DNA of 64,000 bases from Blastococcus tunisiensis (GTDB lineage: Bacteria > Actinomycetota > Actinomycetes > Mycobacteriales > Geodermatophilaceae), in the NCBI RefSeq assembly GCF_900112815.1, contig NZ_FOND01000007.1, positions 62,001 to 126,000 on the forward strand, given 5' to 3'. The position numbers and the translations under genes are program-made. The notes beneath the pieces were generated by a model. That model saw only the letters and a list, made by a program, of their open reading frames with translations. It was not told where the DNA came from and did no database searches. The number at the start of each line of letters is the position of its first letter. Position 1 is the stretch's first letter. Shown piece after piece: positions 22,676-38,148 of the stretch.

Positions 22676-22854
22676 TCAAGAGGCCGACCGTTCGCCGTTG
22701 TCGGGACGGGCACAGACCCGTCGGATGAGGAACACGAGCCCGACTCCGACCACCGTGCCAACGACACCACCGGCAACTCCCTCGGCGTCGCCCATGCGCC
22801 CGACAATCGACCCACGCCGACCAGGACGCCGAGCGCAGCAGCCGCTTCGGTCAT
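22676..22854 (-). pseudogene. Frameshifted copy of small two-helix membrane protein
   Basis: From an ATG at 22854 the frame gives EAAAALGVLVGVG, then a one-base shift gives GVAGGVVGTVVGVGLVFL and RRVCARPDNGER. The intact relative at 57429-57620 has EAAAVLGILLGVA, AIGGVVGTVAAVGLAGL and TRAWSQHRDHER. The ATG overlaps the stop of the SARP gene (ATGA), so it was once translationally coupled to that gene. Confidence 0.6.
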
Positions 22855-25800
22855 GTGGGTGGCCGCACGGCTCCATCGTCCCTGACGGTCACAGCAAGCG
22901 GCTCCGCGCGGGAGAGCGCAGACGGTGTGCTCCTTCGCGGGGGTGACCCAGTGCGGGAGCCGACCTGCTCAGCCAGCTGCTGCACGTGTCGGTAGTGCTC
23001 GGTGGCTGGGTCTCGGCGGCCGAGGAGCGAGGCGAGGTGTCCGAGGTACCGGGAGGTGGGGCCGAGGGTGAGTAGACCGCTGCCGGCGCCGGCGAGCTCA
23101 CCGGCGGCGGGCAGAAGCCGCTCGCGAAGCCGTACCGCGGCAGCCTGCTCCCCGAGCTGGACCGCCGCCAGTGCGTGGATGCAGGTCCGGGCCTCGTACA
23201 ACAGGTCCCGGGGTGAGTCCGGCACTGCGTGGAGTGCGGTCAGCGCCCCGTGTCGGTCCCCCTGCCCCAGGAGCACCAGCGGTCGGATCCACGGCTCGAA
23301 CGGGCCGTAGGTTGCGTGAGTAGCCGGCCGCCCCTCCAGGACGTCGACGCTCAGCAGCGCGAGCGGCAGCAGGCCCTCCTCGAGCCCCGACATCCCCGTG
23401 CCGGTCAGCCGCGTCGCAGCCGCCCGGTAGGCCGGTCGCGCCTCGTCGAACCGCCCCAAGGCCGCTAGCTTCATCGCGGCGTACCAGGCGGTGAACACCC
23501 CGACGACGGGCAGGCCGTAATGGTTGGCGAGCTCGTCGGCCGCCGCCGCGTGCCGGTCGGCGGTGGCGAAGTCGGCCAGCGCCGAGCGTGCCTGTACGAG
23601 GATCAGGTGCCCGAGCACCTCGAAGGCGGCCAGCTCGGGGGAGCCCGACGTCACCGCGACGATCTCTTCCCCGATCCGGGCCCGTTCCGGCGCGAGCCCG
23701 GCACGCTGGAAACTTTGCAGGAACCGGCCGTTGAGCCCGGAGGCCAGCAGCGCCGGGTCGCGCAGCGCCCGCGCGATGTCCTCCGCCTCGTGCGCCGCCG
23801 CGGCACCCCGGGGCCCTTCGTCCGCCCGCCGCTCCAGCGCGATCGTGATCAGCAGCCGCGCCCGCTCCGCCCGCCGACTGGGAGGCAGCGCCGTCAGGGT
23901 CCGCTCGGCCACCTCGACCAGCCGGGTTGACAGGGCCTCGTCGTCGTTGGTGGTCCAGATCGCCGGGACGTCGGAGGCGCCGACCACGGCGGCGGTCAGC
24001 ACCGGGTCGGCGAGCCGCTCCGCGGTGTCGACGGCGTCTGTCCGGAGTCGTCGGGCCTGGGCCAGGTCGCCGGTCACGGCGAGCGCCCGGATGAGGCCGG
24101 TCGTCGCCTCCAGCCGAGCGCGGGGGTCGCCGGCGCTGCGGTCGAGGGCGGTGATCACCCCATGCCACCAGGATGCCGCGGCGTGCGGCGCGGAGCGCTG
24201 CTCCGCCCTCTGGGCCGCGATGCGCGTGAAGTGGGCGACCCGGTCGGCCGGCGCTCGGCTGCCGGCCCGTAACAGGTGGGAGGCGATCGTCTCGACGTGG
24301 TCCGGCCGTACCGCCTCGAGGATCTTGGCGATGGCGGCGTGCCAGCGGGTGCGCCGCGCGCTGGGCACGTCGTCGTACAGGGTCTCCTGCACCAGTGCGT
24401 GCGAGAAGCTCAGCTGGTCGGCGTCCCGTTCGACGAGGAACCCGACCAGCAGTGCCGCTTCCACGCTCTCCAGCACCGCCTCCTCGTCCCCGGAGAGCCG
24501 GATCTGCACCTCGAGGTCGACGTCGATCCCCTGGACGGCGGCCTGCCGGAGGTGCGTGCGCGCCCTCTCCGGGAGCCGGGCCAACCGATGCCGGACGACG
24601 TCGCGCACGCCGGCCGGCACCGTCGACAGGGCTGCGTCGCCCTCCGCCTCCCGCACCCGGATCAGTTCCCGGGCGAGGAAGGGATTGCCGCCGCTGCGGG
24701 TGTGCAGGAGCCGGAGCGGCTCGGGCGCGATCTCCCGGTCGGAGAGGGACTCGACCAGTTCCCGGGTCTGGGCTTCGGTCAGCCCGCCGAGGTAGAGGCG
24801 CGTCGGCTCGGCCCGCGCCACCCGGGCCAGCGACCCAGCGAGCCCGGGAGTCACGTCGGTCGAGCGGTGTGTACCGAGGATCAGCACCCGGCCGAGGCCG
24901 CGATCGGTGGCGAGCGTGCTGAGCAGTGCGAGCGTCTCCTCGTCGGCCCAGTGCAGGTCGTCAAAGACCAACAGGACCGGACGGTCGGCGGACAGGGTGG
25001 TCAGCGCCGACGCCGCGGAGCGGTGACGATGGAACCGGGCGGCAACCGGATCGTCGGCGGAGTCCTCGGCCTCGTCGATCTCCAGCTGGTCCCGCATCTG
25101 GGCCCACGGCCAGGCGACCGGAGCGCCGGCCGACTCCGGGCTGGTGCCCCAGGCGACCCTCCACCCGGATGCGGCGAGCCGATCGGCCAGGCGCCGCGCG
25201 AGGGCGGTCTTTCCCGCGCCGGCCGCGCCGGACAGGAGCACCAGCCGCGGCGCGTCTGCCGCGGCCGTGCGCGCCGCGGCCTCGAGGGCGGCGAGCTCGT
25301 CGCCGCGGCCCACGAACGCCTCCCGCGGCGGCGCTGGTGGCGTCGGCGCAGGCGGCGCGGGGGAGAGCGCCGGGACCTGATCGAGGATGTCGGCCTCGAG
25401 GGCGCCCAGCTCCGGACCGGGGTCGACGCCGAGCTCGGTGAGCAGCATCGACCGGGCGCGACGCAGCGCGGCCAGCGCGTCGCCCTGTCGCCCCGCCTGG
25501 TACAGCGCAAGGCCCAGGAGCCGCCAGGTGCTCTCGCGCAGCGGGTGGCCGGCGACCAGCGACTCGAGTTCGGGCACCGCTTCGGCCGCCCGGCCGCTCC
25601 CGAGGAGCGCTTCGGCCCGGCGGTGCAGCGCCAGCAGCCGCAGTTCCTCGAGTCGGTTCGCTTCCGCCCTCGCCCACGGGTGCTCGGCGAACTCCGCGTA
25701 CGCCGGCCCGCACCACGGCTCAAGTGCCTCGTCGAGCAGCGAGCGGGCCTCGGCGGCTCGTCCTGCGGCGAGCAGTTCGCCAGCGGAGGCGACGGCGGCC

Positions 25801-26123
25801 TCGAACCGTTCGGCGTCGACGTCCTCGGCGCGCAGCGCGTACCCGCCGGCGACGGTGACCAGCAGCCGGGACGGCGTCCGCGCCGGCCGGTCTGGCTCCA
25901 GGGCCCGGCGCAGCGCGCCGACGAAGGTCTGGACCGCCCCTGCGGCGCCGTCGGGCGGCTTGTCCCACAGGTCGTCGATCAGCCGGGCCAGCGAAACCGT
26001 TCGGCCCCGTGCGATGAGCAGGCGGGCCAGGACGGCGCGGTGCCGCGGGCCTTTGAGGTCGACCGGTCCGACTGCGTCTGACGCGGTGACCGGTCCGAGA
26101 ACCCGGAATGTCACCGCTGGCAC
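22851..26123 (-). CDS. SARP/BTAD regulator with AAA ATPase domain
   Basis: About 1,090 residues, AfsR-like in layout. An OmpR-type winged helix (about 1-95) and a BTAD domain (about 100-250, ending at GVDPGPELGALEADIL) make the SARP half. An ATPase domain follows with the P-loop GAAGAGKTALARRLADRL near 305 and LLVFDDLHWADEETL near 390. The last 500 residues are helical TPR-like repeats. Such proteins activate nearby genes by binding direct repeats 11 bases apart, and one such repeat lies between this gene and the divergent hydrolase. The GTG at 26123 is preferred; GTGs at 26132 and 26114 are alternatives and none has a good ribosome binding site. Confidence 0.88.
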   Translation of the reverse strand: MPAVTFRVLGPVTASDAVGPVDLKGPRHRAVLARLLIARGRTVSLARLIDDLWDKPPDGAAGAVQTFVGALRRALEPDRPARTPSRLLVTVAGGYALRAEDVDAERFEAAVASAGELLAAGRAAEARSLLDEALEPWCGPAYAEFAEHPWARAEANRLEELRLLALHRRAEALLGSGRAAEAVPELESLVAGHPLRESTWRLLGLALYQAGRQGDALAALRRARSMLLTELGVDPGPELGALEADILDQVPALSPAPPAPTPPAPPREAFVGRGDELAALEAAARTAAADAPRLVLLSGAAGAGKTALARRLADRLAASGWRVAWGTSPESAGAPVAWPWAQMRDQLEIDEAEDSADDPVAARFHRHRSAASALTTLSADRPVLLVFDDLHWADEETLALLSTLATDRGLGRVLILGTHRSTDVTPGLAGSLARVARAEPTRLYLGGLTEAQTRELVESLSDREIAPEPLRLLHTRSGGNPFLARELIRVREAEGDAALSTVPAGVRDVVRHRLARLPERARTHLRQAAVQGIDVDLEVQIRLSGDEEAVLESVEAALLVGFLVERDADQLSFSHALVQETLYDDVPSARRTRWHAAIAKILEAVRPDHVETIASHLLRAGSRAPADRVAHFTRIAAQRAEQRSAPHAAASWWHGVITALDRSAGDPRARLEATTGLIRALAVTGDLAQARRLRTDAVDTAERLADPVLTAAVVGASDVPAIWTTNDDEALSTRLVEVAERTLTALPPSRRAERARLLITIALERRADEGPRGAAAAHEAEDIARALRDPALLASGLNGRFLQSFQRAGLAPERARIGEEIVAVTSGSPELAAFEVLGHLILVQARSALADFATADRHAAAADELANHYGLPVVGVFTAWYAAMKLAALGRFDEARPAYRAAATRLTGTGMSGLEEGLLPLALLSVDVLEGRPATHATYGPFEPWIRPLVLLGQGDRHGALTALHAVPDSPRDLLYEARTCIHALAAVQLGEQAAAVRLRERLLPAAGELAGAGSGLLTLGPTSRYLGHLASLLGRRDPATEHYRHVQQLAEQVGSRTGSPPRRSTPSALSRAEPLAVTVRDDGAVRPPT

Positions 26124-26163
26124 GCCGACCACGTTAACCGGCGCGCGCCGTCCGCTCAGTGAG

Positions 26164-26183
26164 TGCTGATCGCATGCTGATCG
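26164..26183. repeat. 11-bp-phased direct repeat, candidate SARP operator
   Basis: TGCTGATCG occurs at 26164-26172 and again at 26175-26183, so the unit repeats every 11 bases on one face of the helix. SARP regulators bind exactly this kind of phased direct repeat near the -35 region. It lies 52-71 bases before the hydrolase ATG and 41 bases before the SARP gene start. Confidence 0.6.
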
Positions 26184-26234
26184 GCGTCCCCCACCGTTGT
26201 CGGGACGACATCCCCGACCCTCACGGAGTGCACC

Positions 26235-27113
26235 ATGCCCCGCACCATTCCCGGATTCTCCCACCAGCGAATCGCCGGCGCCGACGACGTCACTCTCAAC
26301 GTCGCCGTCGGGGGATCGGGCAGCCCGATCGTCCTGCTGCACGGCTTTCCGCAGACACACCTGATGTGGCGACACGTGGCCGCCGATCTGGCCGCCGACC
26401 ACACCGTGATCTGCCCCGATCTGCGCGGCTACGGCGCCAGCGACAAGCCCGAGGACTCGGACGGGCAGATGTACTCCAAGCGGGCCATGGCCACCGACGT
26501 CGTCGCCGTCGCCCAGGCCCTCGGCCACGACCGGTTTGCGCTGGTGGGTCACGACCGCGGCGCCCTGGTCGCCATCCGCGCCGGACTGGACCACCCCGAC
26601 GCGGTCACGCACCTGGCGTCGCTGGACGTGCTGACGAATCTCGACACGTGGGCCGTGCTGCAGGGCCGTTCCGCGACCGTGGCGTGGCATCTCTACCTGA
26701 TGGCCCAGCCGGCCGGCCTCCCCGAGAACATGATCAGCGGCGCGGCGGACGAATTCTTCGGGTCTTTCCTCGACGCCTGGGCCAACGACCCCGAGGCCAT
26801 GCCGGCCGACGTGCGCGCGGCCTACCTGGAGGCCTCCCGGGAGGCCATCCCTTCGATCGTCGCTGACTACCGGGCGTCGGCGAACATCGACGTCGAGCAC
26901 GACCAGGCCGACCGGGAAAATGGAAACCGGCTGCGCATGCCAGTGACCGTGCTGCAGCAGGACTGGGGACCGGAACTCAGCTCGGGGGCGGCCGCCATGT
27001 GGCGCGCCTGGGCGCCCGACCTGGAGCACCGGACCGTCTCGTGCGGGCACTTTATGGCCGAGGAAGGCCCCGCGGACGTCATCAGAGCGATCCGCAGCCT
27101 GCTTACCCGGTGA
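26235..27113 (+). CDS. Alpha/beta hydrolase, haloacetate-dehalogenase type
   Basis: A 292-residue alpha/beta hydrolase of the haloalkane dehalogenase and epoxide hydrolase branch. LLHGFPQTHLMW forms the oxyanion region (about 34-45), DLRGYGASDKP is typical of the group, the nucleophile elbow GHDRGA (about 107-112) carries an aspartate nucleophile followed by the Arg seen in fluoroacetate dehalogenases, and the catalytic His is in CGHFMAEE near 275. It may release halide from small haloacids or open epoxides; the substrate cannot be read from sequence. GGAG lies six bases before the ATG. The divergent SARP gene and the phased repeat suggest it is that regulator's target. Confidence 0.88.
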   Translation: MPRTIPGFSHQRIAGADDVTLNVAVGGSGSPIVLLHGFPQTHLMWRHVAADLAADHTVICPDLRGYGASDKPEDSDGQMYSKRAMATDVVAVAQALGHDRFALVGHDRGALVAIRAGLDHPDAVTHLASLDVLTNLDTWAVLQGRSATVAWHLYLMAQPAGLPENMISGAADEFFGSFLDAWANDPEAMPADVRAAYLEASREAIPSIVADYRASANIDVEHDQADRENGNRLRMPVTVLQQDWGPELSSGAAAMWRAWAPDLEHRTVSCGHFMAEEGPADVIRAIRSLLTR

Positions 27114-27525
27114 GCAGGCGGCCGCCGGGACTCCGCCGCTCCTCCCGGGCGCGCGGGGTCGCGTTCGTTTCCGTGCGCCGATGACGACGGCCACGCGGTG
27201 ATCCACGACCGTCCCATCGCGCAGCGACTCGTGATCGCAGTGCCCCTGGGCATGGCGGTCGGAGCGGCGACCTCGGCGGCCCGGCGGTCGCGGGGCTGAC
27301 CAACGCCGTCGGCCCGTGGGCTGTGCCGCCGTTTCACGCCGGTGCGACGGGGGGCGACCGTCGGTCGGCGCCGTCCCCGGCATCGCCGCGAGCGTTCCGG
27401 AGGTCGCGGGCTACGGGTCCCCACGCCACGCGAGCGGTGACAGCGCACATGCACGAGGCGAGTCGGCGCTCACGCTTTCCTCGGTCAGTGCGTGTGACCA
27501 AGGAGCCGCGCCGACAGTTTCGTTC
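27114..27525. other. No intact gene; possible membrane-peptide remnant
   Basis: About 410 bases. A 33-codon frame from a GTG at 27198 to a TGA at 27299 encodes a hydrophobic segment, IAQRLVIAVPLGMAVGAAT, that could be a membrane peptide or a remnant, without a ribosome binding site. Nothing else is recognisable. Confidence 0.3.
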
Positions 27526-27747
27526 TTACCCGCCCCACCGGCTGTTGGGTTTCGCGTCCAACACTTGAGCGATGTACTGACCCCTGGACTGCCCAGGTGC
27601 GGTGAACTGTTCCCATACATCTGGTGGGCAAGCTGAGTATGCCCACTCCACACCGTCAGGAAATCGGACGAGGATGGTTTCCGTTTCGGGCACGTAAGCC
27701 TCGGAGATGATGCGGTTCGACCCGTCGACCGGTGTCCACTCGATCAC
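27526..27747 (-). CDS. KTSC-domain protein, third gene of SIR2-HerA cassette
   Basis: A 73-residue protein built almost entirely of a KTSC-like domain: VDGSNRIISEAYVPETETI, then VRFPDGVEWAYSACPPDVWE and a final RGQYIAQVLDA. In this family a V-x-S-S-N start, a Tyr-rich strand and an R-x-Y-x-x-x-I end are usual, and all are present in recognisable form. Its GTG at 27747 overlaps the stop of the HerA gene (GTGA), so it is the last gene of a coupled three-gene unit. Its role is unknown; it may assist, regulate or neutralise the SIR2-HerA complex. Confidence 0.75.
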   Translation of the reverse strand: MIEWTPVDGSNRIISEAYVPETETILVRFPDGVEWAYSACPPDVWEQFTAPGQSRGQYIAQVLDAKPNSRWGG

Positions 27748-29504
27748 GAGTCGGAATCGTACGCGCCTCGCCACGCCGCAATCGCTGCAGTCACGTCCGG
27801 GACTGTCGGCTCCGCCCGCCACGAGGCGAGGGAGGGATCTTCGGCTCGCGGCAGGGGCTCGGGCAGGTCTACGAGGGCCCGGGCCGGCAGCACCAGCGCT
27901 TCACCGGTGACGATGGCTTCCCCCGTCCGCAACGACGGCAATACGGCGGCCAGGCCGGCCACGCTGTCGGGCAGCGCGGCACGGATCTTCGCCTGGTCAG
28001 CCGAGTTGCTCAGCCGCAGCGCGATCAAGGTCCCGCACTGGGCCAGCGCCGTATCAGGCAGCTCGGACGGGCGTTGTGTGATCAGAACCAGCCCGATGCC
28101 GTACTTTCGCCCTTCACGGGCAATCCGGTTGACCGACTCCCGGGCGATGGGTGCCGCCGCTGCTCCGAGGTACCGGTGCGCTTCTTCGAGGACGATCAGG
28201 ACAGGCCGGGGACGCCCGACGCCGGGTTGGTCGACGGGCGTGCGGACCGCTACTTCGAAGAGCAGGTTGAGGACTACCCCGATGGCCAGTTCGCTCGCCT
28301 CGGCGGGGACCCCGCTGAAGTCAAGAACCGAAACCGGGCGTTCGTCTCCCAGCCACGAAGCGAGCACGTCCACCAGCGGGTCCACACCGGCCGGATCCCC
28401 CTGGGGTTCCTGGAAGAACCTGAGGCGGGGATCGAGCAGTCCGAGGCGCAACAGCTCCGGTGTGCTGCCGAAGACGCCGTGATGGGGGCCCTTGAAGGGA
28501 GCAGCCCCGCCCTGCGAGTACGGCCGAAAGTGGGCCGGTCTCAGCTCGGCAGGGGATCCCGCGTTCTCCTCGCACGCCGTATCCGGATCTTTGGCGACCT
28601 GGCGGGTCTCGTTGTTCTCCCAGTCGAGACGATGCCAGACCCTGCGGAGGTCGAAGGGGACCGGGGTGTCGGCGGTCACGGCGGCGGGGTCCAGGCTCAA
28701 CCATGAAGCTGCATCGACGAAGTCCCGGCGGGCTTGAGCGACCAGCTCCTCGAAGCGGCTGCGAAGGGTCGCGCCACCGGAAGAGCCGGCGAAGACCCGC
28801 AAGATGTCCCCGGCGGGCAGCGCCCAGTACGGCACGCGGAGACGCCGGTCGCCCGATGCCAGCACCGACCGGATCGTGGCATCGTCGCCCAGTGCTCGTG
28901 CGTACTCGCCGTGTGAGTCGATGACGACGATGTTGGCAGCGGCCCAGCCGCCGCGAGCGAAGCGCTGGAGCACGGCGCTGACGGCGCTGGTCTTGCCGGC
29001 GCCCGTCGAGCCGACGATGGCGGCGTGCCGTAGGACGAGGCGCCCGGCGTCGAGGCACACCGGTACTTCTTCGGCGGCGGCCAGCCGTCCGATGCGGAGG
29101 TGTTCGTTGTCCGCTCCCGGGAACACCGTCCGCAGGTCGTCGGCGGTGGCAAAGTGCACGGGGTCGTCGAGGCCGGGATAGGAGCCCACGCCGCGCTGGA
29201 AACGCCCCGTGGCCCGGGCTACTTCGCCGAGCAGTTGAATCTGCAGCCAGCGTTCCCCTGTCTGGACGACCTCGCCCGGGGCGGGCGCCTCCGACAGTTC
29301 GGAGATCCCGAGGAGGCTGACCTGCCCGATGAGATCCACCAGCCCCTGAGGTATGCGAACGATCGACCCGATCTGTCCGACCGGCTGCAGTCGACCCCGG
29401 TAGATGGGTGCGACACCCGCGAGGTCGGTGCTCAGGGCCACCGTCACCTGCGCGCCGAGGACGTGCCTCACGACACCGATGCAGGTTGGGTCGCGTTCAG
29501 GCAT
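27744..29504 (-). CDS. HerA-type ATPase/translocase
   Basis: A 586-residue HerA/FtsK-clade ATPase. The N-terminal 75 residues form the HAS barrel (around GVAPIYRGRLQPVGQIGSI). The Walker A motif GSTGAGKTS lies near 165-172, the Walker B segment VLIVLEEAHRYLG near 436-448, and the ring contact LITQRPSELPDTALAQCGT near 480, all typical of hexameric DNA pumps. In SIR2-HerA antiphage systems this protein forms a ring that carries the SIR2 subunits. Its ATG overlaps the end of the SIR2 gene by eight bases. Middle residues (about 240-370) are an insert between the Walker motifs as in other HerA proteins. Confidence 0.9.
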   Translation of the reverse strand: MPERDPTCIGVVRHVLGAQVTVALSTDLAGVAPIYRGRLQPVGQIGSIVRIPQGLVDLIGQVSLLGISELSEAPAPGEVVQTGERWLQIQLLGEVARATGRFQRGVGSYPGLDDPVHFATADDLRTVFPGADNEHLRIGRLAAAEEVPVCLDAGRLVLRHAAIVGSTGAGKTSAVSAVLQRFARGGWAAANIVVIDSHGEYARALGDDATIRSVLASGDRRLRVPYWALPAGDILRVFAGSSGGATLRSRFEELVAQARRDFVDAASWLSLDPAAVTADTPVPFDLRRVWHRLDWENNETRQVAKDPDTACEENAGSPAELRPAHFRPYSQGGAAPFKGPHHGVFGSTPELLRLGLLDPRLRFFQEPQGDPAGVDPLVDVLASWLGDERPVSVLDFSGVPAEASELAIGVVLNLLFEVAVRTPVDQPGVGRPRPVLIVLEEAHRYLGAAAAPIARESVNRIAREGRKYGIGLVLITQRPSELPDTALAQCGTLIALRLSNSADQAKIRAALPDSVAGLAAVLPSLRTGEAIVTGEALVLPARALVDLPEPLPRAEDPSLASWRAEPTVPDVTAAIAAWRGAYDSDS

Positions 29505-30654
29505 GGGCACCTTCTGCAGCCTTCGCCAGCAGGTCCGCCAGCCGGGCTTCCAGCTCCCCTTCCGGCGGCGAGCTGCGCGCCAGAAAACTGGCCAGGTGCC
29601 GGAAGTCGCCGAGTGCGAGGCGGCCGTCGCGCCACAGGTCGGCCGGGGCCTCGCTCGGCGCTTCCCAATCGGCCCGGACGCCGCCCAGGACCGCCTCCTG
29701 GGCACCTACCGCCTGCAGGTTCGGCGTCGTCAATGCCCGGTCGACCAGCTCATCGGGTATCGCGTCGAAGCACAGCGCGATCAGCTCGGAGCGTGGCCGA
29801 CGCCGAGCGGCGTCGAACAACACCTCGTTGAGGTGAGCGTCACCGAAGGAGTAGCCGCTGATGATCATCAGCGTCTCCGGATGATTCAACGCCCGACGCA
29901 GTCGATCCTGGAGAACCACGAAAGGAACGCGACGGGACTCGTCGTATTTTGCGTCCGAAGGGTAGATCGCGGCCGGCTGAGCGTCAGCAACGGGTGCGCC
30001 GACCCGGACCACCTCAGCGCGTTCCCCACCTTCCCAGGCCCAGTGCACCGAGCCATGGAGTTTCCACAGCCGTACCAGGAAGGCGGGGAGCCATTCATCA
30101 GCGTCGGACGGCGCGGACTCAACGAGGTCCACACGAAACCGGGCTCGCAGCGCACCGACGAACCCGTCGAAGTACGGGACACCGAGCGCCTCGAGCGCAC
30201 TCTCCAGCAACAAGTCGTAGTTGACCGTGAAGAGCTCCACCGGGAGGTGGTAGTTCGCGCGGGCCGCCCAGGCCGCGAAGCGCAAGGTCGGATCGATGTC
30301 AGCGTTGGCGATGTCGAGGGCGCTGACAACGAGCCGGCAGACCGCCAGGTCCAGGGCGCGTGCCTCGGCCGCACCGAGTCCGTCCACCGTGTCGTCGCCG
30401 CCATCCAGCAGCACGGCGATGCGACGCAGCCGACTGAGCGCGGCTTCGAGGTTACGGCCGGCAAGCTGGCTTTCGAAGGCGGTTCGCTGTTCGGGGTTGA
30501 GACCCTTCAGCACAAGTGTCTGCAGACCGGCGACATCGGGGAGCCCGCACGCGCGGGATGCCCCAGCACCGAGGAAGGCGCATACATGTCGTGATCGGGC
30601 TGCCAGCTTCGCGCTGATGCCGTTGGCGAACGGCATGACTGCGTGGCCGGTCAT
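29497..30654 (-). CDS. SIR2-like NADase effector
   Basis: A 385-residue SIR2-family protein of the kind found in antiphage systems. CAFLGAGASRACGLPD (about 25-40) binds NAD; the catalytic Asn is in FTVNYDLLLE near 150, the catalytic His in LWKLHGSVHW near 205, and GYSFGDAHLNEVLF near 275 marks the SIR2_2 subfamily. All catalytic residues are present, so NAD hydrolysis on phage infection is the expected activity. The ATG at 30654 is chosen because TAGACT lies seven bases upstream (leaderless pattern); 30636 is an alternative. The overlapping HerA gene gives the known SIR2-HerA arrangement. Confidence 0.9.
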   Translation of the reverse strand: MTGHAVMPFANGISAKLAARSRHVCAFLGAGASRACGLPDVAGLQTLVLKGLNPEQRTAFESQLAGRNLEAALSRLRRIAVLLDGGDDTVDGLGAAEARALDLAVCRLVVSALDIANADIDPTLRFAAWAARANYHLPVELFTVNYDLLLESALEALGVPYFDGFVGALRARFRVDLVESAPSDADEWLPAFLVRLWKLHGSVHWAWEGGERAEVVRVGAPVADAQPAAIYPSDAKYDESRRVPFVVLQDRLRRALNHPETLMIISGYSFGDAHLNEVLFDAARRRPRSELIALCFDAIPDELVDRALTTPNLQAVGAQEAVLGGVRADWEAPSEAPADLWRDGRLALGDFRHLASFLARSSPPEGELEARLADLLAKAAEGAHA

Positions 30655-30661
30655 CGCGCCA

Positions 30662-30667
30662 AGTCTA
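30662..30667 (-). promoter_or_regulatory. Probable -10 box of SIR2 gene
   Basis: On the minus strand TAGACT fits TANNNT and is separated by seven bases from the ATG at 30654, which has no ribosome binding site. This predicts a leaderless transcript for the SIR2-HerA-KTSC unit. No good -35 box is visible. Confidence 0.5.
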
Positions 30668-30965
30668 CGTGCGGTGCCCTGGACCACCCCTGCGCCCTCT
30701 CAGCTGTCGATCTTGCTTGACGCTGACGTGGCCGGGTGGGGAGCGCCGACGGCGGGTGGCAACTCCCGAGGTTGGGAGGGGCTCCGTCTCCAGCTCGTGG
30801 TGGGTCGGCGCCCCCAGGGGCGACCTTGAGACGGTGTGACGACGGTCCGGGGTAGCGCCTTTCCTGTTACGCGTGAGGCCGGTGGGAACCGCACGATCGA
30901 ATGGCTAGAAACCGCCTCGTCTCGTATGGCACCGTGCAGGCTTGTGTGCGAACGGGGGAGCGGGG

Positions 30966-31499
30966 ATGCGCGGAATGGTCGTGGTCGACCAGCCGGTCGA
31001 GGAGCGAGTGGTCGTCTGGCACGTGAGCGTGGGCGACGGTCTCGAGTCGTCGATGGCGGGGGCGTGGGTGCTTCCCGCCGACGACCCGAGGATTGAGGGG
31101 CTGGTCGTCGGGCGGCTGCTGGTCAGCACGCCGGGGGCCGTCGCCCGGTTCGGCTCCGGTGCGGACCTCGCCGCGCTGGCAGCCGCGATCGACGCGGAGA
31201 CCGCACGGCTGGACCGGGCGTTCGCCGACCACCTGGCCACCCTGTCGCGGTCGCGGCGCAGTCTGGTCCGGCCCCGGTGGCCGTCGACCACGGAGACCGC
31301 GTCGGGTCGACACTCCGGTGACCCGTTGGCGGCGGGGACCCTCGCGCTGGCCCGCCGGGTCTCCGATCTGCTCGACGCCTGGGACGGCGTGGAGAAGGAG
31401 CGCCTGGCCCGCCCGTTCCTGATCACTTTTGGTGGCGGGAGCGCGCGCAGCTTCCCGCCAGGCTGGCCGACCACTACGAACAGCGAGGAGCCGTCATGA
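30966..31499 (+). CDS. Unknown protein, partner of exonuclease gene
   Basis: A 177-residue protein of unknown function. The N-terminal third (MRGMVVVDQPVEERVVVWHV) is beta-rich, the middle has a helix around AALAAAIDAETARLDRAFAD, and the end is charged. No motif is recognised. The ATG at 30966 has GGGGGAG five bases upstream; an ATG at 30975 is possible. Its stop overlaps the ATG of the exonuclease gene (ATGA), so the two are coupled and probably act together. It is divergent from the SIR2-HerA cassette, sharing a 311-base intergenic region. Confidence 0.7.
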   Translation: MRGMVVVDQPVEERVVVWHVSVGDGLESSMAGAWVLPADDPRIEGLVVGRLLVSTPGAVARFGSGADLAALAAAIDAETARLDRAFADHLATLSRSRRSLVRPRWPSTTETASGRHSGDPLAAGTLALARRVSDLLDAWDGVEKERLARPFLITFGGGSARSFPPGWPTTTNSEEPS

Positions 31500-32782
31500 G
31501 CGTGGCCGTCGTGGACCTGGAGACGACCGGGGTCTATCCCAGCGTCGACCGTGTCGTGGAGATCGGCGTCGTCCTGCTCGACGACGCCGGTGAGGTGGAA
31601 GAGGAGTTCTGCACTCTCGTCGATCCGGGTCGCGACGTCGGCGCGACGTCGATCCACGGCATCCGGGCCTCGGACGTTGTCGGCGCTCCCGCCTTCGCCG
31701 AGGTGGCGCCGCACGTGTCCGCGCTGCTGTCCGGCCGGGTGGTCGTGGCCCACAACGCCCTGTTCGACCTGCGCTTCCTCGCCCGCGAGTTCGCCCGTGC
31801 CGGTCTGCCGGTGGCGCTGTCGCCGGTGCTGTGCACGATGCGGCTGGCGGGGTTCTTCGACCGGTCGTTGCGCTCGCTGGCCACCGTCTGCGAGGCGCTG
31901 TCCATCGCGCACGAGCAGGCGCACGCCGCGCTGGAGGACGCGCGGGTGACGGCGCTGGCCCTGTGCCGGCTGCGTGAGCTGTTGGGTGACGCGGTGATGG
32001 TCGACGCCGTGCTCGCCGTGGACTTCGACCCCGACGGTGCTTACCTCGGCTCCGGCGGGCTGTACCGGCGGGACTGGGCGGGCGTGCTGGCCGAGGTGTC
32101 GGCAGGCCGGCGGCCGGGCGCGGGGCCCTGCCGCAGCGTGACCCGGTCTCGGGCGGCGGCCGTCCGCCGCGACCGCGACGGCTACCTGGCCAGGCTCGTG
32201 TCGGCGATGCCGGAACTGGCGGCGGCGCCGGTGACGATGGCACCCTACCTCGGCGTGCTCGACCAGGTGCTCGAGGACCGTCTGGTCAGCGTCAGCGAGG
32301 CCGACCAGCTCGTGGGCCTGGCGGGGGAGCTCGGATGCGGGCCTGGCCACGTCCAGGCCGCACACCGCCTCTACCTCGACGCGCTGGCCACCGTCGCCCT
32401 CGCCGACGACATCGTCACCGACGCCGAGCGCCACGACCTCGACCGGGTCGCCGTCCTGCTGGGACTCGGGCCCGGCGACGTCGAGGTCGCCCTGACCATG
32501 GCCCGGTCTGGCGCGCGGGTCTCCGTCCCTCGCCGGTCTCGTGGCTTCTCCGCCGGAGACTGGATCTGCTTCACCGGCGAAATGTCTCGCCCGCGGTCGG
32601 CCTTCGAGAATGCCGCCCGCGCCGCCGGACTCCAGCCGATGAATGCCGTGTCCGGCAAGACGGACGTCCTCGTCTGCGCTTGTCCCGACTCGCAGTCGGG
32701 TAAGGCGCGGAAGGCCCGTGCGCTAGGCGTGAGGGTCATCGGCGAGGCGGTGTTCTGGGACGCCGTCGGGCACGTGAGCTGA
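31496..32782 (+). CDS. DEDDh exonuclease with TerB-like and BRCT domains
   Basis: A 428-residue protein with a DnaQ-type 3'-5' exonuclease domain at 1-165: VVDLETTGVYP supplies Asp and Glu, HNALFDLRFL the second Asp, and HAALEDARVTALAL the His and last Asp, so the active site is complete. About residues 240-335 resemble the TerB-like helical domain (DALATVALADDIVTDAERHD). The C-terminal 85 residues form a BRCT domain (FSAGDWICFTGEMSRPRSAF, KTDVLVCA, KARALGVRVIGE) that would bind DNA ends or partners. It is likely to process DNA ends in repair or defence. Confidence 0.88.
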   Translation: MSVAVVDLETTGVYPSVDRVVEIGVVLLDDAGEVEEEFCTLVDPGRDVGATSIHGIRASDVVGAPAFAEVAPHVSALLSGRVVVAHNALFDLRFLAREFARAGLPVALSPVLCTMRLAGFFDRSLRSLATVCEALSIAHEQAHAALEDARVTALALCRLRELLGDAVMVDAVLAVDFDPDGAYLGSGGLYRRDWAGVLAEVSAGRRPGAGPCRSVTRSRAAAVRRDRDGYLARLVSAMPELAAAPVTMAPYLGVLDQVLEDRLVSVSEADQLVGLAGELGCGPGHVQAAHRLYLDALATVALADDIVTDAERHDLDRVAVLLGLGPGDVEVALTMARSGARVSVPRRSRGFSAGDWICFTGEMSRPRSAFENAARAAGLQPMNAVSGKTDVLVCACPDSQSGKARKARALGVRVIGEAVFWDAVGHVS

Positions 32783-32864
32783 CGCTCGGCGGGAGAGTCC
32801 GGCCTCGCCGGTCTTTTCACACGGTGAGGACTACATCCACCACTCAACGGGACGTCACCTCTGC

Positions 32865-33244
32865 TGGCGCTGGGCCTCGAAGGCCCACCTTCTGGTCAGC
32901 GTCATCGATACGGCTAGCGATGAATCGATGGGTAGTTCCCGGACTTCTGGTCCCTGCCGGATGACCTGGTTGCGCTGTTGACGGCACTCGTCGGGGTCGA
33001 CGTCGGGCCGGGAGGGAAGGCCAGCCGAGCCCTGCCGGCGTCATGAAGCACGGGCCGACTCTGGCGTCAGCTTTCCGCAGCGGTCCGATGGCGCGCTGGG
33101 CAGAAGCCTTCCTGACGGTTCTCGACCGCGAGGAGACTCACGCCGAGCGACGCGACATCGCTGGACGATCAGCGGCAGAGGGTTCGATGAACAGCTGGTG
33201 CCGTGGTCGACGAGGTCATGGCGCCGTTCCTTGGACGCCGCTGA
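32865..33244 (+). pseudogene. Decayed TetR regulator
   Basis: The pieces match the intact regulator at 55466-56095 in order but in changing frames: WRWASKAHLLVSVIDTASDE (against WRWSSKAD, VSLIDTASDE), then VALLTALVGV and KASRAL, then AFRSGPMARWAEAFLTVL (against AFRRGPMARWAEAFATVR), then FDEQLV and AVVDEVMAPFLGRR with a stop at 33244. The DNA-binding N-terminus is missing and at least three frame changes are needed. Confidence 0.75.
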
Positions 33245-33286
33245 CTCGGCGCTCTCGATCGGCGTCCGTCGAGCGCGGCGCGGGGT

Positions 33287-33703
33287 CTAGGTGCAGTAGG
33301 CCCACACGTACTTGCGCTCGGCGGTAACGAGCCAGCCGTGGGTGGTGGTGAGCCGGGCGACCAGGAACAGCCCTAACCCGCCGAGAGCGGGATCGCGCCC
33401 TATGGCCAACTCTGGCGCGTGTTCGGGCTGCGAGTCGCTGACCTCGATCAGGAGCCCGTCGGTGGCTGCAACGACGCGCGCTCGCACCGGTGGCCCACCG
33501 TGGCGGAGTCCGTTCGACGCCAGTTCCTCGACGGCGAGGAGGAATCGCTCGCAGCGAGCGTCGTTCATCACCACCGATTCGGCGTCGACGAGGCGGCGTA
33601 CGTCGGCTCGCACGAAATGCAGGTCGGCAGTCGTCGACAGCTCCCACTGCCAGCTCGGGCCGCCGAGCTGCGGGGGTGGTCGCTGTGTCCAGGTGTCGTC
33701 CAT
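33287..33703 (-). CDS. RsbW-like ATP-binding protein
   Basis: A 138-residue histidine-kinase-fold ATPase of the RsbW/anti-sigma type. The N box is in LLAVEELASNGLRHGG near 60-75 (Glu and Asn present), and a G box is in ALGGLGLFLVARL near 115-127. Such proteins bind a sigma factor or anti-sigma antagonist and phosphorylate or release it. The ATG at 33703 follows AAGG closely. It lies downstream of, and in the same direction as, the SpoIIE-type phosphatase gene, its likely counterpart in a partner-switching module; no separate antagonist (STAS) gene is present here. Confidence 0.85.
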   Translation of the reverse strand: MDDTWTQRPPPQLGGPSWQWELSTTADLHFVRADVRRLVDAESVVMNDARCERFLLAVEELASNGLRHGGPPVRARVVAATDGLLIEVSDSQPEHAPELAIGRDPALGGLGLFLVARLTTTHGWLVTAERKYVWAYCT

Positions 33704-33974
33704 AGCCTTCAGTTCAACTTGGGCGCCGTCGGAAAAGGGCGCTGCGCTCGCCGCCCAGGGAACCAGCCGATGCCCCATCGCGCGACCCCAGCGAGCACAT
33801 CGATCGATGACTGCGCGGGTCGCCGGACTGGCCGCCACGCCGAGGGCACCCGGTAGAGCGCCGGCCACAGCGGCGCAGGTTCCCTTGGATGACCTGGACA
33901 GTCAGCTCACGGCTTTCCTCTGGTGGGTCCACCACCGCGACCCTGCTGCGCCCAGTCGGCACCGGTTGCCCGGG

Positions 33975-35819
33975 TCAGGTTGGTGGTTCAGGTGGGACAT
34001 TGGGTGGGGTGCGGTTGGGTCCGGCCTCGGCTGGGCGGGGCGCGTTCTGGGGGTGGAGGCGGACGGCGACGAGAGCGACGTCGTCTTCGGGGCGGTCGGG
34101 CAGCAGACGCGTCAGCAGGTCATCACACAGCTGGTCGAGGTCGCGGCCGGCCAGCTCGGACAGGGTGCGCCGCAGGCGCTGCAGGCCGTCGTCGAGGAGC
34201 TGGTCGCGGCGTTCGATCAGGCCGTCGGTGTAGAGGAGCACGACCGCATCCCGGTCCAGGGTGATCTCGGATTCTCGGCGTGGGGTGCCAGGCTCGACGC
34301 CGAGGAGCAGGTCGGGACCGTCGCCGGTGAGCAGATCCACCCGGCCGTCGGGATGGAGCACGATCGGCGGGGGGTGTCCGGCGTTGGACCAGCGCAGCCG
34401 GGTGACTCCGCGGCGCCGTTCGCCGGAGGTCTGCTCGAGTCGGGCGACGAGGGCGGTGGCAAGCGTGTCGACCTGCAGGGTCTGCATCACCCGGTCCGCC
34501 TGGGCAAGCAGCGCGGCGGGACGGCGGTTGGTCTGTGCGCCCAGCGTCCGCACGATCGTCCGAATCTGGCTCATGTCGGCGGCGGCGGCGACGTCGTGGC
34601 CGACGACGTCACCAATGACCAGAACGGTGGCACCACCGGGTTGCAGAAAGGCGTCGTACCAGTCCCCGCCGACCTGGGCGGCCCGCGCCGCCGCCGTGTA
34701 CCGCACGACGACCTGCAGATGGTCGGGCTCGGGGGGTGCGGTCAGCAGCGATCGCTGGAGGGTCTCGGCGACGTCGCGCTGCTGGTCGAAGAGCCGACGG
34801 TTGTCCACGGCCAGCCCGGCGCGGGCGGCGGCCTCCTGTGCGGTGGCCAGGTCCTCGGCGCTGAAGTCTGGACGATGCTGCCCGGTGTACAGCGACAGCA
34901 CGCCCACGGTGCGTCCCCGGGCACGGAGGGGCAGCAGGACGCCGTGTCGGGGGGCCAGCTGCGCGATGAGGTCGGCGGCCTCACCCGGGTGCAGCAGCGC
35001 CCGGACCGACCGCCCGGCGTCGGGTGGAATGCGCACCGGCCCCGACGCGGTCAGGGCACGATGCAGGTACGCGCCGGGCGTGGTCGCGGCCAAGCGGATG
35101 GCGGTGTAACGCTCGAGGAGCGGACGCATCGCCGCCTCGGCATGCCAGCTGGCGACGTCCCGCAGCCCACGGAGGAAGCCGGCGCGAGCGTGGTCGTCGA
35201 CGAGGGTGACCATGCACCAGTCGGCCAGAGTCGGGACCATCAGCCTCGCCAGCCGAGTCACCGCCTGCTCGGCGTCCAGGTGTTCGGTCAGCTCGCCGGC
35301 AACCTGGCTGAGCAGTTCGGCGCGGCGTGCCGCCGCGTCCGCGGCCTGCTGCTCACTGCGGCCGGCCGTGACGTCCCAGGCCGCGCCCAACAGCCGGACG
35401 GCGGTGCCGGCCTCGTCGCACAACACCCGGCCGCGGGCCTGAATCCACCGCAGCCCCTCCTCGGCCAGCTGGATGCGGTACTCGGCCGCGTAGTCCCCAC
35501 AGCTGTCGATCGCCTCCTGCAGTAGTTGCCCAACGCGAGGGAGGTCCTCCGGATGCAGCCGGGCGTTGAATCCCTCGAGGGTTTCGTCGAAGGAGTGCGC
35601 GTCGTAGCCGAACATCTCCAGCAGCCGTTCGTCCCAGCTCAGTCTGCCGGTGACCAGGTCCCAGTCGAAGGTGCCGATGCCTGCGGCGGTGACGGCCAGC
35701 TCCAGCAGGGTCCGCTGCGCGTCGCCGTCCTCGGCATCGAACTCCAGCTCGGCCTCGGCCGGCACCAGGCCGTCGGCCGTTCGTGTCCACTCGCCATGGT
35801 CCCGGCGCCCGTGCGTCAC
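33975..35819 (-). CDS. PAS-GAF-SpoIIE serine phosphatase
   Basis: About 614 residues: a PAS domain (about 35-155), a GAF domain (about 180-355) and a PP2C-type SpoIIE phosphatase domain (about 375-590). The phosphatase metal ligands lie in QVGGDWYDAF and VIGDVVGHDV, then LRWSNAGHPPPIV, and near the end LYTDGLIE and PEDDVALVAVRL, so it looks active. It would dephosphorylate an anti-sigma antagonist in response to a signal. The GTG at 35819 is preferred because GGAGAG lies six bases upstream; an ATG at 35873 is possible. A CRP-type palindrome is 81 bases upstream. The RsbW-like ATPase gene follows after 271 bases. Confidence 0.9.
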   Translation of the reverse strand: MTHGRRDHGEWTRTADGLVPAEAELEFDAEDGDAQRTLLELAVTAAGIGTFDWDLVTGRLSWDERLLEMFGYDAHSFDETLEGFNARLHPEDLPRVGQLLQEAIDSCGDYAAEYRIQLAEEGLRWIQARGRVLCDEAGTAVRLLGAAWDVTAGRSEQQAADAAARRAELLSQVAGELTEHLDAEQAVTRLARLMVPTLADWCMVTLVDDHARAGFLRGLRDVASWHAEAAMRPLLERYTAIRLAATTPGAYLHRALTASGPVRIPPDAGRSVRALLHPGEAADLIAQLAPRHGVLLPLRARGRTVGVLSLYTGQHRPDFSAEDLATAQEAAARAGLAVDNRRLFDQQRDVAETLQRSLLTAPPEPDHLQVVVRYTAAARAAQVGGDWYDAFLQPGGATVLVIGDVVGHDVAAAADMSQIRTIVRTLGAQTNRRPAALLAQADRVMQTLQVDTLATALVARLEQTSGERRRGVTRLRWSNAGHPPPIVLHPDGRVDLLTGDGPDLLLGVEPGTPRRESEITLDRDAVVLLYTDGLIERRDQLLDDGLQRLRRTLSELAGRDLDQLCDDLLTRLLPDRPEDDVALVAVRLHPQNAPRPAEAGPNRTPPNVPPEPPT

Positions 35820-35899
35820 AGTCAGCTCTCCACGCCTCGTGTCGCGGGCGCCAACAGCCCGAGATAGACCCATTGTGACCGCCTAAACCCATCGGGTGA

Positions 35900-35915
35900 T
35901 GTGACGTGCATCACA
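35900..35915. promoter_or_regulatory. CRP/GlxR-type palindrome
   Basis: TGTGA-CGTGCA-TCACA, an exact match to the CRP core, extended to GTGATG-N7-CATCAC. It lies 81 bases before the preferred start of the phosphatase gene, a usual distance for a regulatory site. The same core occurs at 4181-4196. Confidence 0.55.
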
Positions 35916-36180
35916 ACTAGCCCTCCATGCCACTCCCGACCTCCGAGTCGTCGGAGGAGTAGCGGCCGGACCGTGTTGAGCATGGTTGAGCTGCTCATGG
36001 CTTGCTCACTGCGGTCCACGATGTAGGGCCGCCACAGGTGCCGATGGGGGCGCTGACGGCGTGGACCAGGCGGGTGCAGGGCCAGCACGTCTTGTGCTCG
36101 TGGATCCGGCCCGGCCGTAGTCTCCGCGGAGCGGCGCTGTCCCGGCTGCGTGGAGGCACCGCCGAAGCGCGGGATGACGC

Positions 36181-38148
36181 TCAGCCGCGCTGAGTCACGG
36201 GCTCGGCGAAGAGTTGTGCCCGGCCGCGTCCGTTGTTCTTCGCCCGGTACATGGCGGCGTCGGCCTGAGCAAGGAGTCTCTCCGGATCATCGCCGGCATG
36301 CTGGGCGAGTGCGATTCCGACGCTGACGGTGATTGCGAGGTCCAGGTGGTTCACGGTGATCGGCGTCCGGAACGCGTCGATGATGCGCTCGGCGATGGCC
36401 GATGCATGGTCGGCGTCCACGACGTGCTCGCAGAGGACGGCGATCTCGTCTCCGCCGAGGCGGGCAACGGTGTCCTCGGGGCGGAGCGCGTGGGTGACCC
36501 GTTCGCCGATCGCGCAGAGGACCTGGTCGCCGGCGTCATGCCCGTACCGGTCGTTGATCTGCTTGAACCGGTCGACGTCGAGGAACATCGCCGCCACGGG
36601 ACCGGGGTGCCGTTCCAGCCGAGCCAGGGCGTGCCGGAGCCGCTCGAAGAACAGCGTTCGGTTGGCCAGCCCGGTGAGTGGGTCGTGCAGGGCCTCCCGG
36701 CGCAGCCGGTCGGCTTCCCGCGCGGCGGTGACGTCATGGACCACTGCGAGTCCCCCGACGACCTGCCCGGTCTCGTTGCGGAGGGGGGAGTAGGCGGCCG
36801 TGAACCAGCCCTGCACTCCGGTCTCGGGCACGTCGAAGTAGCGCTCCCCGGTGCCGACGTGGTCACCGCCGAGCGTGGTCCGGAAGATCCGGTCGTCGCC
36901 GGACTCCACGATGGAGGGAAAGCGTTCGAAGGCCACCTGCCCCAGGACTGCGGCGGCCGGGACACCGGTGAGCGCTTCCATTGCCGGGTTCCACAGGGTG
37001 TAGCGGAAGTCGGTGTCGAAGGCGAAGATGCAGTCCGAGGCGCTGCGGACGAGACGCTGGGAGAATTCCCGCTCGCGGTCCAGGGCGTCCTGGGTCTCTC
37101 GTTCGGTCTCCGCGAGCCGGATGCGTTCCAGGGCAATGTCCAGCAGGGTCGCCAGTGACCGCACCCGGAACAGTTCCGTCTCGCCGAAGAACGGTGTGTA
37201 GGGGCTGACCCACACCGACAGCCGGCCGGATTGAAGCTCGAAGTCCACGCGCCGGGGTGAGCCTGCGGCGCCATCAGGGTGGGTGGCCGCGCGGCCGTGC
37301 GTGCGGGCGTCGGTCACGTCGCCGTAGGCGGCCACCACGCCGTGTTCGGCGTCGGTCACTGCGGCGCCGCGGCCCCCCACAACCCGCACCAGATGAGGCA
37401 GCAGCACGTCGGTGATCTCGGCTCGGCTGGCGGCCGCCACCAGGCTCTGCACGGCCTGGTCGAGGTCGGCCTCGTCGGAGTGCCGCCAGGACGCCAGCAG
37501 GAACCGGGGAGGCGTCAGCCCGGCCCAGAACAGAACCGTGCTGAGCACGGCCAACGACTGCACCACCAGCGCCGGCCAGTCGCCGGAACCTGCCCGCGTG
37601 GTGCCGGCGGTCAGGATGGCGATGCTGAGCCCGAGCGACGCGTACGCCAACAGGCGCATGCGCCGGCGCACCAGGTTCGCCTGGCCCCGGCCGGCGACCC
37701 ACAGTCGCGCCGCGACGAGGGCGGACAACGCCGTCCACAGCAATAGGGCCGCCGCGATGTACCAGATCGACCATCCCGGGGCCGGCTCACCGGCTTGTCC
37801 GAGCGGCGGCAGGGCCAGCGTGACCACGGCGAGCAGCAGGGTGGCCCCTGTCGCCGGGGCGTCGATCAACCTCGGCATCCCGGTGAAGGCGGCCGCGAAG
37901 CGGTGCAGGCAGTAGGGGAAGCAGATGAGCGCGGCGATGCGGACTTTGTGTGCCCAGGCGACCGCGGCGCCTCCGGTGTCCGGCAGCAGCAGCCCGGAGG
38001 TGGTCACCAGCGCGAGCAGGGCGAAGCTCACCGCCGCCCACTTCGCCGGCGCATCCCGACGTTGCCGCCACTGAGCCAGCGATGCCGCCGCCAGGCCGAG
38101 GAAGAGCAGCGTCGCGAGAGCGCGTAGGAGGCCGATCACCGTATCCAC
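36181..38148 (-). CDS. Membrane PAS-GGDEF diguanylate cyclase
   Basis: A 655-residue protein. The first 225 residues contain about seven hydrophobic helices, followed by a GAF-like region (about 235-350), a PAS domain (about 370-480) with FDTDFRYTLWNPAMEALTG, and a GGDEF domain (about 490-645). The signature is GGDEI at 565-569; the catalytic Gly-Gly-Asp-Glu is intact and only the last Phe is replaced, so activity is likely. An RPED inhibitory site is present and FLDVDRFKQINDRYGH supplies a metal ligand. No EAL domain follows. The GTG at 38148 starts the first helix but has no clear ribosome binding site. Confidence 0.9.
   Translation of the reverse strand: MDTVIGLLRALATLLFLGLAAASLAQWRQRRDAPAKWAAVSFALLALVTTSGLLLPDTGGAAVAWAHKVRIAALICFPYCLHRFAAAFTGMPRLIDAPATGATLLLAVVTLALPPLGQAGEPAPGWSIWYIAAALLLWTALSALVAARLWVAGRGQANLVRRRMRLLAYASLGLSIAILTAGTTRAGSGDWPALVVQSLAVLSTVLFWAGLTPPRFLLASWRHSDEADLDQAVQSLVAAASRAEITDVLLPHLVRVVGGRGAAVTDAEHGVVAAYGDVTDARTHGRAATHPDGAAGSPRRVDFELQSGRLSVWVSPYTPFFGETELFRVRSLATLLDIALERIRLAETERETQDALDREREFSQRLVRSASDCIFAFDTDFRYTLWNPAMEALTGVPAAAVLGQVAFERFPSIVESGDDRIFRTTLGGDHVGTGERYFDVPETGVQGWFTAAYSPLRNETGQVVGGLAVVHDVTAAREADRLRREALHDPLTGLANRTLFFERLRHALARLERHPGPVAAMFLDVDRFKQINDRYGHDAGDQVLCAIGERVTHALRPEDTVARLGGDEIAVLCEHVVDADHASAIAERIIDAFRTPITVNHLDLAITVSVGIALAQHAGDDPERLLAQADAAMYRAKNNGRGRAQLFAEPVTQRG

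Follow-up and report, generated by a model that had tools for sequence, protein, structure and literature searches.

A three-gene SIR2-HerA operon of Blastococcus tunisiensis from a subtype whose KTSC domain probably belongs to the HerA motor

The three overlapping genes of the cassette

The stretch of Blastococcus tunisiensis DNA analysed here (64,000 nucleotides of contig NZ_FOND01000007.1, positions 62,001 to 126,000, hereafter the window) carries on its minus strand a compact co-directional operon in which a SIR2 gene is followed by a HerA gene and then by a small gene for a KTSC-domain protein (Table 1). An earlier note, made from the sequence alone, had described these as an antiphage SIR2-HerA cassette with a coupled third gene, and its gene structure holds well: the open reading frames (ORFs) are found again at the positions of Table 1, those of SIR2 and HerA share eight bases (29497-29504), and the GTG start of the 73-residue KTSC protein overlaps the HerA stop by four bases (27744-27747, GTGA). 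The guanine-plus-cytosine content of the cassette is 68% versus 71% for the window.

Table 1. Genes of the SIR2-HerA-KTSC cassette, with positions in the window
Feature	Position	Strand	Length and start
SIR2-family effector (SIR2_2), predicted NADase	29497..30654	minus	385 aa, ATG start
HerA-type ATPase/translocase	27744..29504	minus	586 aa, ATG start
KTSC-domain protein, predicted HerA-associated subunit	27526..27747	minus	73 aa, GTG start

The likeness to known SIR2-HerA defence systems that the earlier note had drawn is borne out by Pfam, PADLOC and solved chains, which agree with one another. The SIR2 protein matches Pfam SIR2_2 (E=8e-13) and the PADLOC SIR2 model PDLC04093 (343 bits), its nearest solved chain is 8w9l (171 bits), and the GAGAS motif at 29, the NYD at 145-147 and H200 within LHGS show that the N/D/H catalytic residues are all kept, as had been claimed. 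The HerA protein matches Pfam DUF87 (E=5.8e-26) together with HerA_C, as well as the PADLOC HerA model PDLC04105 (437 bits), with 8wiv_A as nearest solved chain (347 bits), a Walker A motif from residue 165 and the Walker B motif EEAH from 440. The NCBIfam antiphage SIR2/HerA equivalogs NF042942, NF042943 and NF042944 stay well below their cut-offs (63 of 500, 165 of 800 and 206 of 850 bits); presumably these models describe the SIR2-HerA of E. coli type. By its genes, motifs, adjacency and PADLOC models, the cassette is a SIR2-HerA defence system, for which NADase activity, assembly and phage resistance are predicted.

As regards the third gene, the score is borderline: Pfam PF13619 gives 25 bits against a cut-off of 25 in the protein search (E=1.6e-5) and 24.5 bits, just below the cut-off, in a whole-genome search, where it is the sole match in its genome at E<=0.001. 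The assignment is nonetheless secure because the relatives match PF13619 (31/31 members of the KTSC alignment, the window's own included) and because the fold agrees, the AlphaFold model (mean predicted local distance difference test of 94.9) superposing on the solved KTSC proteins 7x8c and 4rgi with template modelling (TM) scores of 0.80-0.85 in Foldseek. The KTSC call of the earlier note has thus come through a profile search. PADLOC 2.0.0 gave no match for the three KTSC proteins tried, the window's among them.

Recurrence of the KTSC gene beside SIR2 and HerA

Relatives were gathered by a genome-wide HerA scan that was not selected on KTSC, from which the best 80 of 580 were kept and their loci searched with profiles. 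All 30 of the closest HerA loci among these 80 have SIR2 upstream and a KTSC domain, which follows HerA directly in 29 and is fused to it in one (L028); KTSC was found in 0/50 of the others, one of which, L093, ends 10 bases after the HerA ORF. A larger, pooled table holds 119 of 144 HerA or KTSC loci, the 25 dropped being duplicates or shifted copies, pieces of one broken cassette (genome G289, which has KTSC, at L012) and KTSC loci without HerA. In this table KTSC is present at 53 loci, four of which (L137-L140) had been found through a KTSC search, and absent from 66. SIR2 accompanies 51 of the 53, the other two being truncated, L007 by a contig end and L141 by an insertion with transposase ORFs. 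SIR2 likewise occurs at 25 of the 66 KTSC-less loci; setting aside L017, whose sequence stops 2 bases past the HerA ORF, leaves 24 SIR2-bearing loci without KTSC. The 41 KTSC-less loci without SIR2 are an upper figure: L008-L011 begin at or near the HerA ORF, so that a missing SIR2 is uninformative there (the shifted copies L013 and L014 show SIR2 for two of them), and about ten others have less than 700 bases upstream. Two loci, L005 and L006, had given the impression of KTSC-less SIR2-HerA in single-sequence tblastn; the profile search found KTSC at both.

The association is close to complete among the nearest relatives of the window HerA. Above 570 bits, KTSC adjoins or is fused to HerA at 50 of 51 loci, the exception being the truncated L017, and once L137-L139 are removed, so that nothing has been selected on KTSC, it is present at 47/47 testable loci. 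The KTSC domain match begins a median of 12 nt after the HerA stop (range -20 to 42). By gene overlap and by recurrence, KTSC is therefore a real, coupled third component of SIR2-HerA, as the earlier note had supposed; the lack of recurrence in other genomes that the note had named as refuting is not what was found. That it might be a chance neighbour, as its short length and borderline Pfam score could suggest, has a negligible probability and is ruled out by the recurrence itself: the gene order is kept in nine named phylum-level bacterial groups and on an archaeal plasmid, and KTSC genes are otherwise rare. Within 247 genomes of one other phylum we counted nine KTSC genes in eight genomes, five of the nine directly after HerA; G399, the genome at the centre of this search, was chosen for its cassette, and without it there remain eight genes in 7/246 genomes, four of the eight after HerA.

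In the window's own phylum, HerA-like matches (E<=1e-20) occur in 10 of 396 genomes, the window's included, and KTSC follows HerA in six of the ten, among which the cassette of G289 is broken across two contigs and that of G342 lies at a contig edge. Two further genome samples, each centred on a genome already known for the cassette, yielded HerA profile matches (E<=1e-60) in 7/369 genomes (four with KTSC) and 10/385 (three with KTSC). HerA-like tblastn matches were obtained in 348 plasmid records, of which nine were viewed, for the most part the highest-ranked ones, and no frequency can be drawn from them. Eight of these nine plasmids bear SIR2-HerA-KTSC (Methylocystis, Paraburkholderia, E. 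coli, Citrobacter, Sphingomonas, two from Rhizobium and the haloarchaeon Natrinema), their annotation already naming KTSC domain-containing proteins, and the ninth, pRL11 of Rhizobium leguminosarum, has a more distant HerA in a SIR2-HerA pair without KTSC. Records with the KTSC cassette come from Pseudomonadota, Thermodesulfobacteriota, Bacteroidota, Campylobacterota, Spirochaetota, Gemmatimonadota, Omnitrophota, Vulcanimicrobiota and Patescibacteria, in addition to the archaeal plasmid. Since it is found in such distant phyla and on an archaeal plasmid, the cassette seems to have moved between distant hosts as a unit. At the DNA level, the E. coli plasmid cassette was found in 1/5426 complete E. 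coli genomes, which is the query's own record. Phage records gave no match to the query protein P0002 at 1e-20; a contig of IMG/VR listed as viral (L016) carries SIR2, HerA and KTSC in this order.

It is worth noting how the neighbourhoods differ. The Paraburkholderia plasmid cassette (L019, 1-9204) lies amid a cytosine methyltransferase and an Eco29kI-type endonuclease, a PIN protein and a HEPN/ATPase pair, which has the look of a plasmid defence island. The genes flanking the window cassette (22851-38148) have no such look: they comprise an AAA/BTAD-like regulator, a hydrolase, an exonuclease with a BRCT-like end, a SpoIIE-like phosphatase and a GGDEF protein, names that come from reading the ORFs with no profile search behind them. 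No insertion site could be defined for the cassette; in the three relatives whose copy of the flanking exonuclease gene is the closest match, the gene of the opposite flank is not nearby. On the Natrinema zhouii plasmid (L020, 6762-7854) an ADP-ribosylglycohydrolase gene, annotated in two pieces, stands directly after the archaeal KTSC gene. Such an enzyme would suit an ADP-ribosylation reading of SIR2 if it were recurrent; as a fourth component it was set aside, no match being found at any other of the 119 scanned loci. Elsewhere in the window, at 21480-21547, ARAGORN calls a tRNA-like gene, probably spurious, whose anticodon (cgcc) oddly has four bases.

Attachment of KTSC to HerA and its possible function

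The members of this subtype take two forms, mostly a separate small KTSC gene coupled to HerA and, in some, a C-terminal domain of HerA itself. The fused form is a minority of 2/53 KTSC loci: at L028, KTSC makes up the last 70 residues of a 688-residue HerA ORF, and at L141 it is fused to the HerA that the insertion has cut. With its separate KTSC gene, the window cassette is the split form, in three genes, of a SIR2-HerA subtype that is widespread. A fused domain is present in solved complexes as well. The KTSC family profile matches residues 628-695 of chain A of PDB 8wiv, the HerA of a solved SIR2/HerA complex (E=2.7e-15), and the window KTSC model matches ten HerA chains of 8wiv, 8wld, 8wof and 8wj3 with TM scores by query length of 0.63-0.81 and E-values from 5e-4 to 0.9 (3/10 at E<=0.001); the KTSC domain is therefore resolved in those structures. 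The fused L028 HerA was modelled with a low-confidence linker at 593-627, and full-length fits of this model to 8wld chains give a root mean square deviation near 24 A; it aligns over 547-565 columns with the 8woc and 8wod chains listed and likewise with single chains of 8wiv, 8wld, 8wof and 8wj3. We take 8wiv, 8wj3, 8wk0, 8wld, 8woc, 8wod and 8wof to be the Paenibacillus sp. 453MF complex of Liao et al. 2024 (NAR 52:11336), whose abstract is said to describe a HerA hexamer in the form of a split spiral, to which a unique C-terminal extension gives stability. Because the KTSC domain sits at the HerA C-terminus, that extension likely includes it.

Our phylogeny analyses point in the same direction. 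On a HerA tree of 111 proteins (8 of the 119 loci were left out) the KTSC label changes once, against a mean of about 37 when shuffled, and the window HerA falls on the KTSC side with its KTSC adjoining, a pattern compatible with a single origin of the association. Over 50 cassettes the KTSC distances correlate with those of HerA (r 0.83) and of SIR2 (0.73), and the partial correlations are 0.61 for KTSC-HerA given SIR2 (p 0.001) and -0.22 for KTSC-SIR2 given HerA. On this evidence of fusions, fold matches and co-divergence, KTSC is first of all a part of HerA. The earlier note had left open whether it is a regulator, an inhibitor or an infection sensor: a HerA-attached regulatory part fits best, and the poorest fit is a stand-alone SIR2 inhibitor, given the fusions of KTSC to HerA and a KTSC divergence that tracks HerA, not SIR2. 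An antitoxin-like KTSC that keeps SIR2 quiet until infection removes it would explain why a small gene is coupled into the operon of a potentially lethal NADase. We nevertheless consider this improbable: the fusions at L028, L141 and 8wiv are to HerA and not to SIR2, the divergence of KTSC follows HerA once the other partner is allowed for, 24 SIR2-bearing HerA loci manage without it, and the gene comes after HerA instead of adjoining SIR2.

The explanation that we favour, with confidence somewhat above even, is a three-gene antiphage operon of a SIR2-HerA subtype whose KTSC domain belongs to the HerA motor. SIR2 would be the NAD-degrading effector and HerA a hexameric DNA translocase; KTSC would dock on the C-terminal side of HerA, with about one copy per HerA, as a separate version of the C-terminal extension, and would stabilise or gate the ring, setting its shape or activity. 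Upon infection, HerA might engage DNA or another phage cue, the SIR2-HerA assembly would rearrange, and SIR2 would degrade NAD+, the infected cell stopping before phage release. That KTSC binds HerA when separately encoded is what we infer, as are the stoichiometry, its influence on HerA and the trigger, and the NADase and abortive-infection steps are carried over by analogy from the studied SIR2-HerA systems, in which SIR2 is described as a NADase (PMC11263360) and as a two-layered dodecamer with a bound HerA hexamer (PMC12198126).

Several points weigh against this explanation. The 24 SIR2-bearing HerA loci without KTSC in the 119-locus table, together with the solved E. coli complex 8j4u/8sub, in which the KTSC profile found no match, mean that KTSC is not needed for SIR2-HerA generally, and both bacteria and phages also carry KTSC domains with no HerA. 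On the HerA tree, the branch that parts the KTSC side is weakly supported (14), with the long-branch row L123 at its base. Since KTSC-bearing members went into the HerA profile, its bit scores favour their clade. When the six-member window clade and three short-SIR2 rows are taken out, the KTSC-HerA partial correlation falls to 0.30 (p 0.001) and that of KTSC-SIR2 is 0.03. We infer, moreover, the assembly of three separate proteins into one complex, and the ring-stabilising role leans on what the abstract of the Paenibacillus work reportedly states.

A different emphasis would make KTSC the sensor of the system, a nucleic-acid-binding module that assists HerA in capturing invading DNA (or RNA) or discriminating it. 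KTSC travels with a DNA translocase, and it is called DNA-binding in one passage of the literature (PMC9503650) and an RNA-binding domain in another (PMC7824862); no experiment stands behind either label in these passages, and beyond KTSC itself Foldseek gave a mixed set of weak matches. We regard this reading, which is not exclusive of the HerA-attached subunit favoured above, as a tentative one, clearly the less probable of the two. Still more doubtful is that KTSC mimics the KTSC domains of phage proteins, such that structural or packaging components of the phage dock on the HerA ring and trigger it, a proposal to which we give very little credit. In tblastn searches, the E. coli plasmid KTSC matched 43 phage records, at up to 51% identity, and the window KTSC matched six; one BFVD phage match is named a structural protein, and in three of the five phage records viewed (L158, 6001-6483; L160, 4773-5198; L156, 6001-6210) KTSC lies beside or within about 2.5 kilobases (kb) of a portal or large terminase gene. 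However, the sample consists of five records, in Colwellia phage 9A (L159) KTSC stands among nucleotide-metabolism genes, and Vibrio phage 230E39-1 (L157) has its terminase gene some 5 kb from KTSC. As a side observation, the L156 match shares bases with a gene that is annotated on the opposite strand. It is tempting, if unlikely, to go one step further and to see KTSC as a detachable sensor on the HerA ring that resembles the phage KTSC proteins, some of them near portal or terminase genes, and on which a phage component would dock and license SIR2; if this were true, having three separate genes would allow the sensor to be swapped with the motor left unchanged.

Comparison with known systems

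Three kinds of described systems bear on the novelty of the cassette, and on the statement of the earlier note that no SIR2-HerA system with such a third component was known to it. That statement does not stand entirely, since a coupling of HerA to KTSC is mentioned, with an endoDNase, in a passage of Iyer et al. 2022 (PMC9503650), and KTSC is fused to HerA in 8wiv and 8wld. For SIR2-HerA with a separate KTSC gene, word searches of 5.39 million papers, two of which name both KTSC and HerA, found no description, the main structural papers, which may describe the fused domain, being outside their reach. What the earlier note had called an undescribed system variant is real and under-annotated, but the third gene better defines a subtype of a known defence system than a new kind of system. 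A 2025 review places SIR2-HerA among two-component systems and gives its activation as 'Unclear' (PMC12198126). The presence of KTSC in every testable member of the subtype and its fusion to HerA in a solved structure make it a place to look for the activation signal, and cloning only SIR2 and HerA from such a cassette may leave a working part behind.

The HerA-KTSC-endoDNase neighbourhoods, given as an unpublished observation in that passage of Iyer et al., resemble the window cassette in coupling HerA to a KTSC gene and differ from it in that an endoDNase replaces the sirtuin, the effector of the cassette being SIR2. We saw no endoDNase variant among the 53 KTSC-HerA loci, L007 (contig start) and L141 (insertion) being the only two without a detected SIR2. 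The solo KTSC proteins (7x8c, 4rgi and those of phages) share with the window KTSC a common fold, at the TM scores given above for the two solved ones. The E. coli SIR2-HerA (Nezha; 8j4u, 8sub) has, like the window cassette, two enzymes of the same families, but these are more distant from the window proteins (100 bits for HerA, 43 bits for SIR2) and are without a KTSC match. The closest solved relatives by sequence, for HerA and SIR2 alike, are the complexes of the 8wiv series, which have the same SIR2-HerA pair and a KTSC domain as part of the system; there KTSC is fused at the HerA C-terminus (628-695), whereas in the window it is encoded by a gene of its own.

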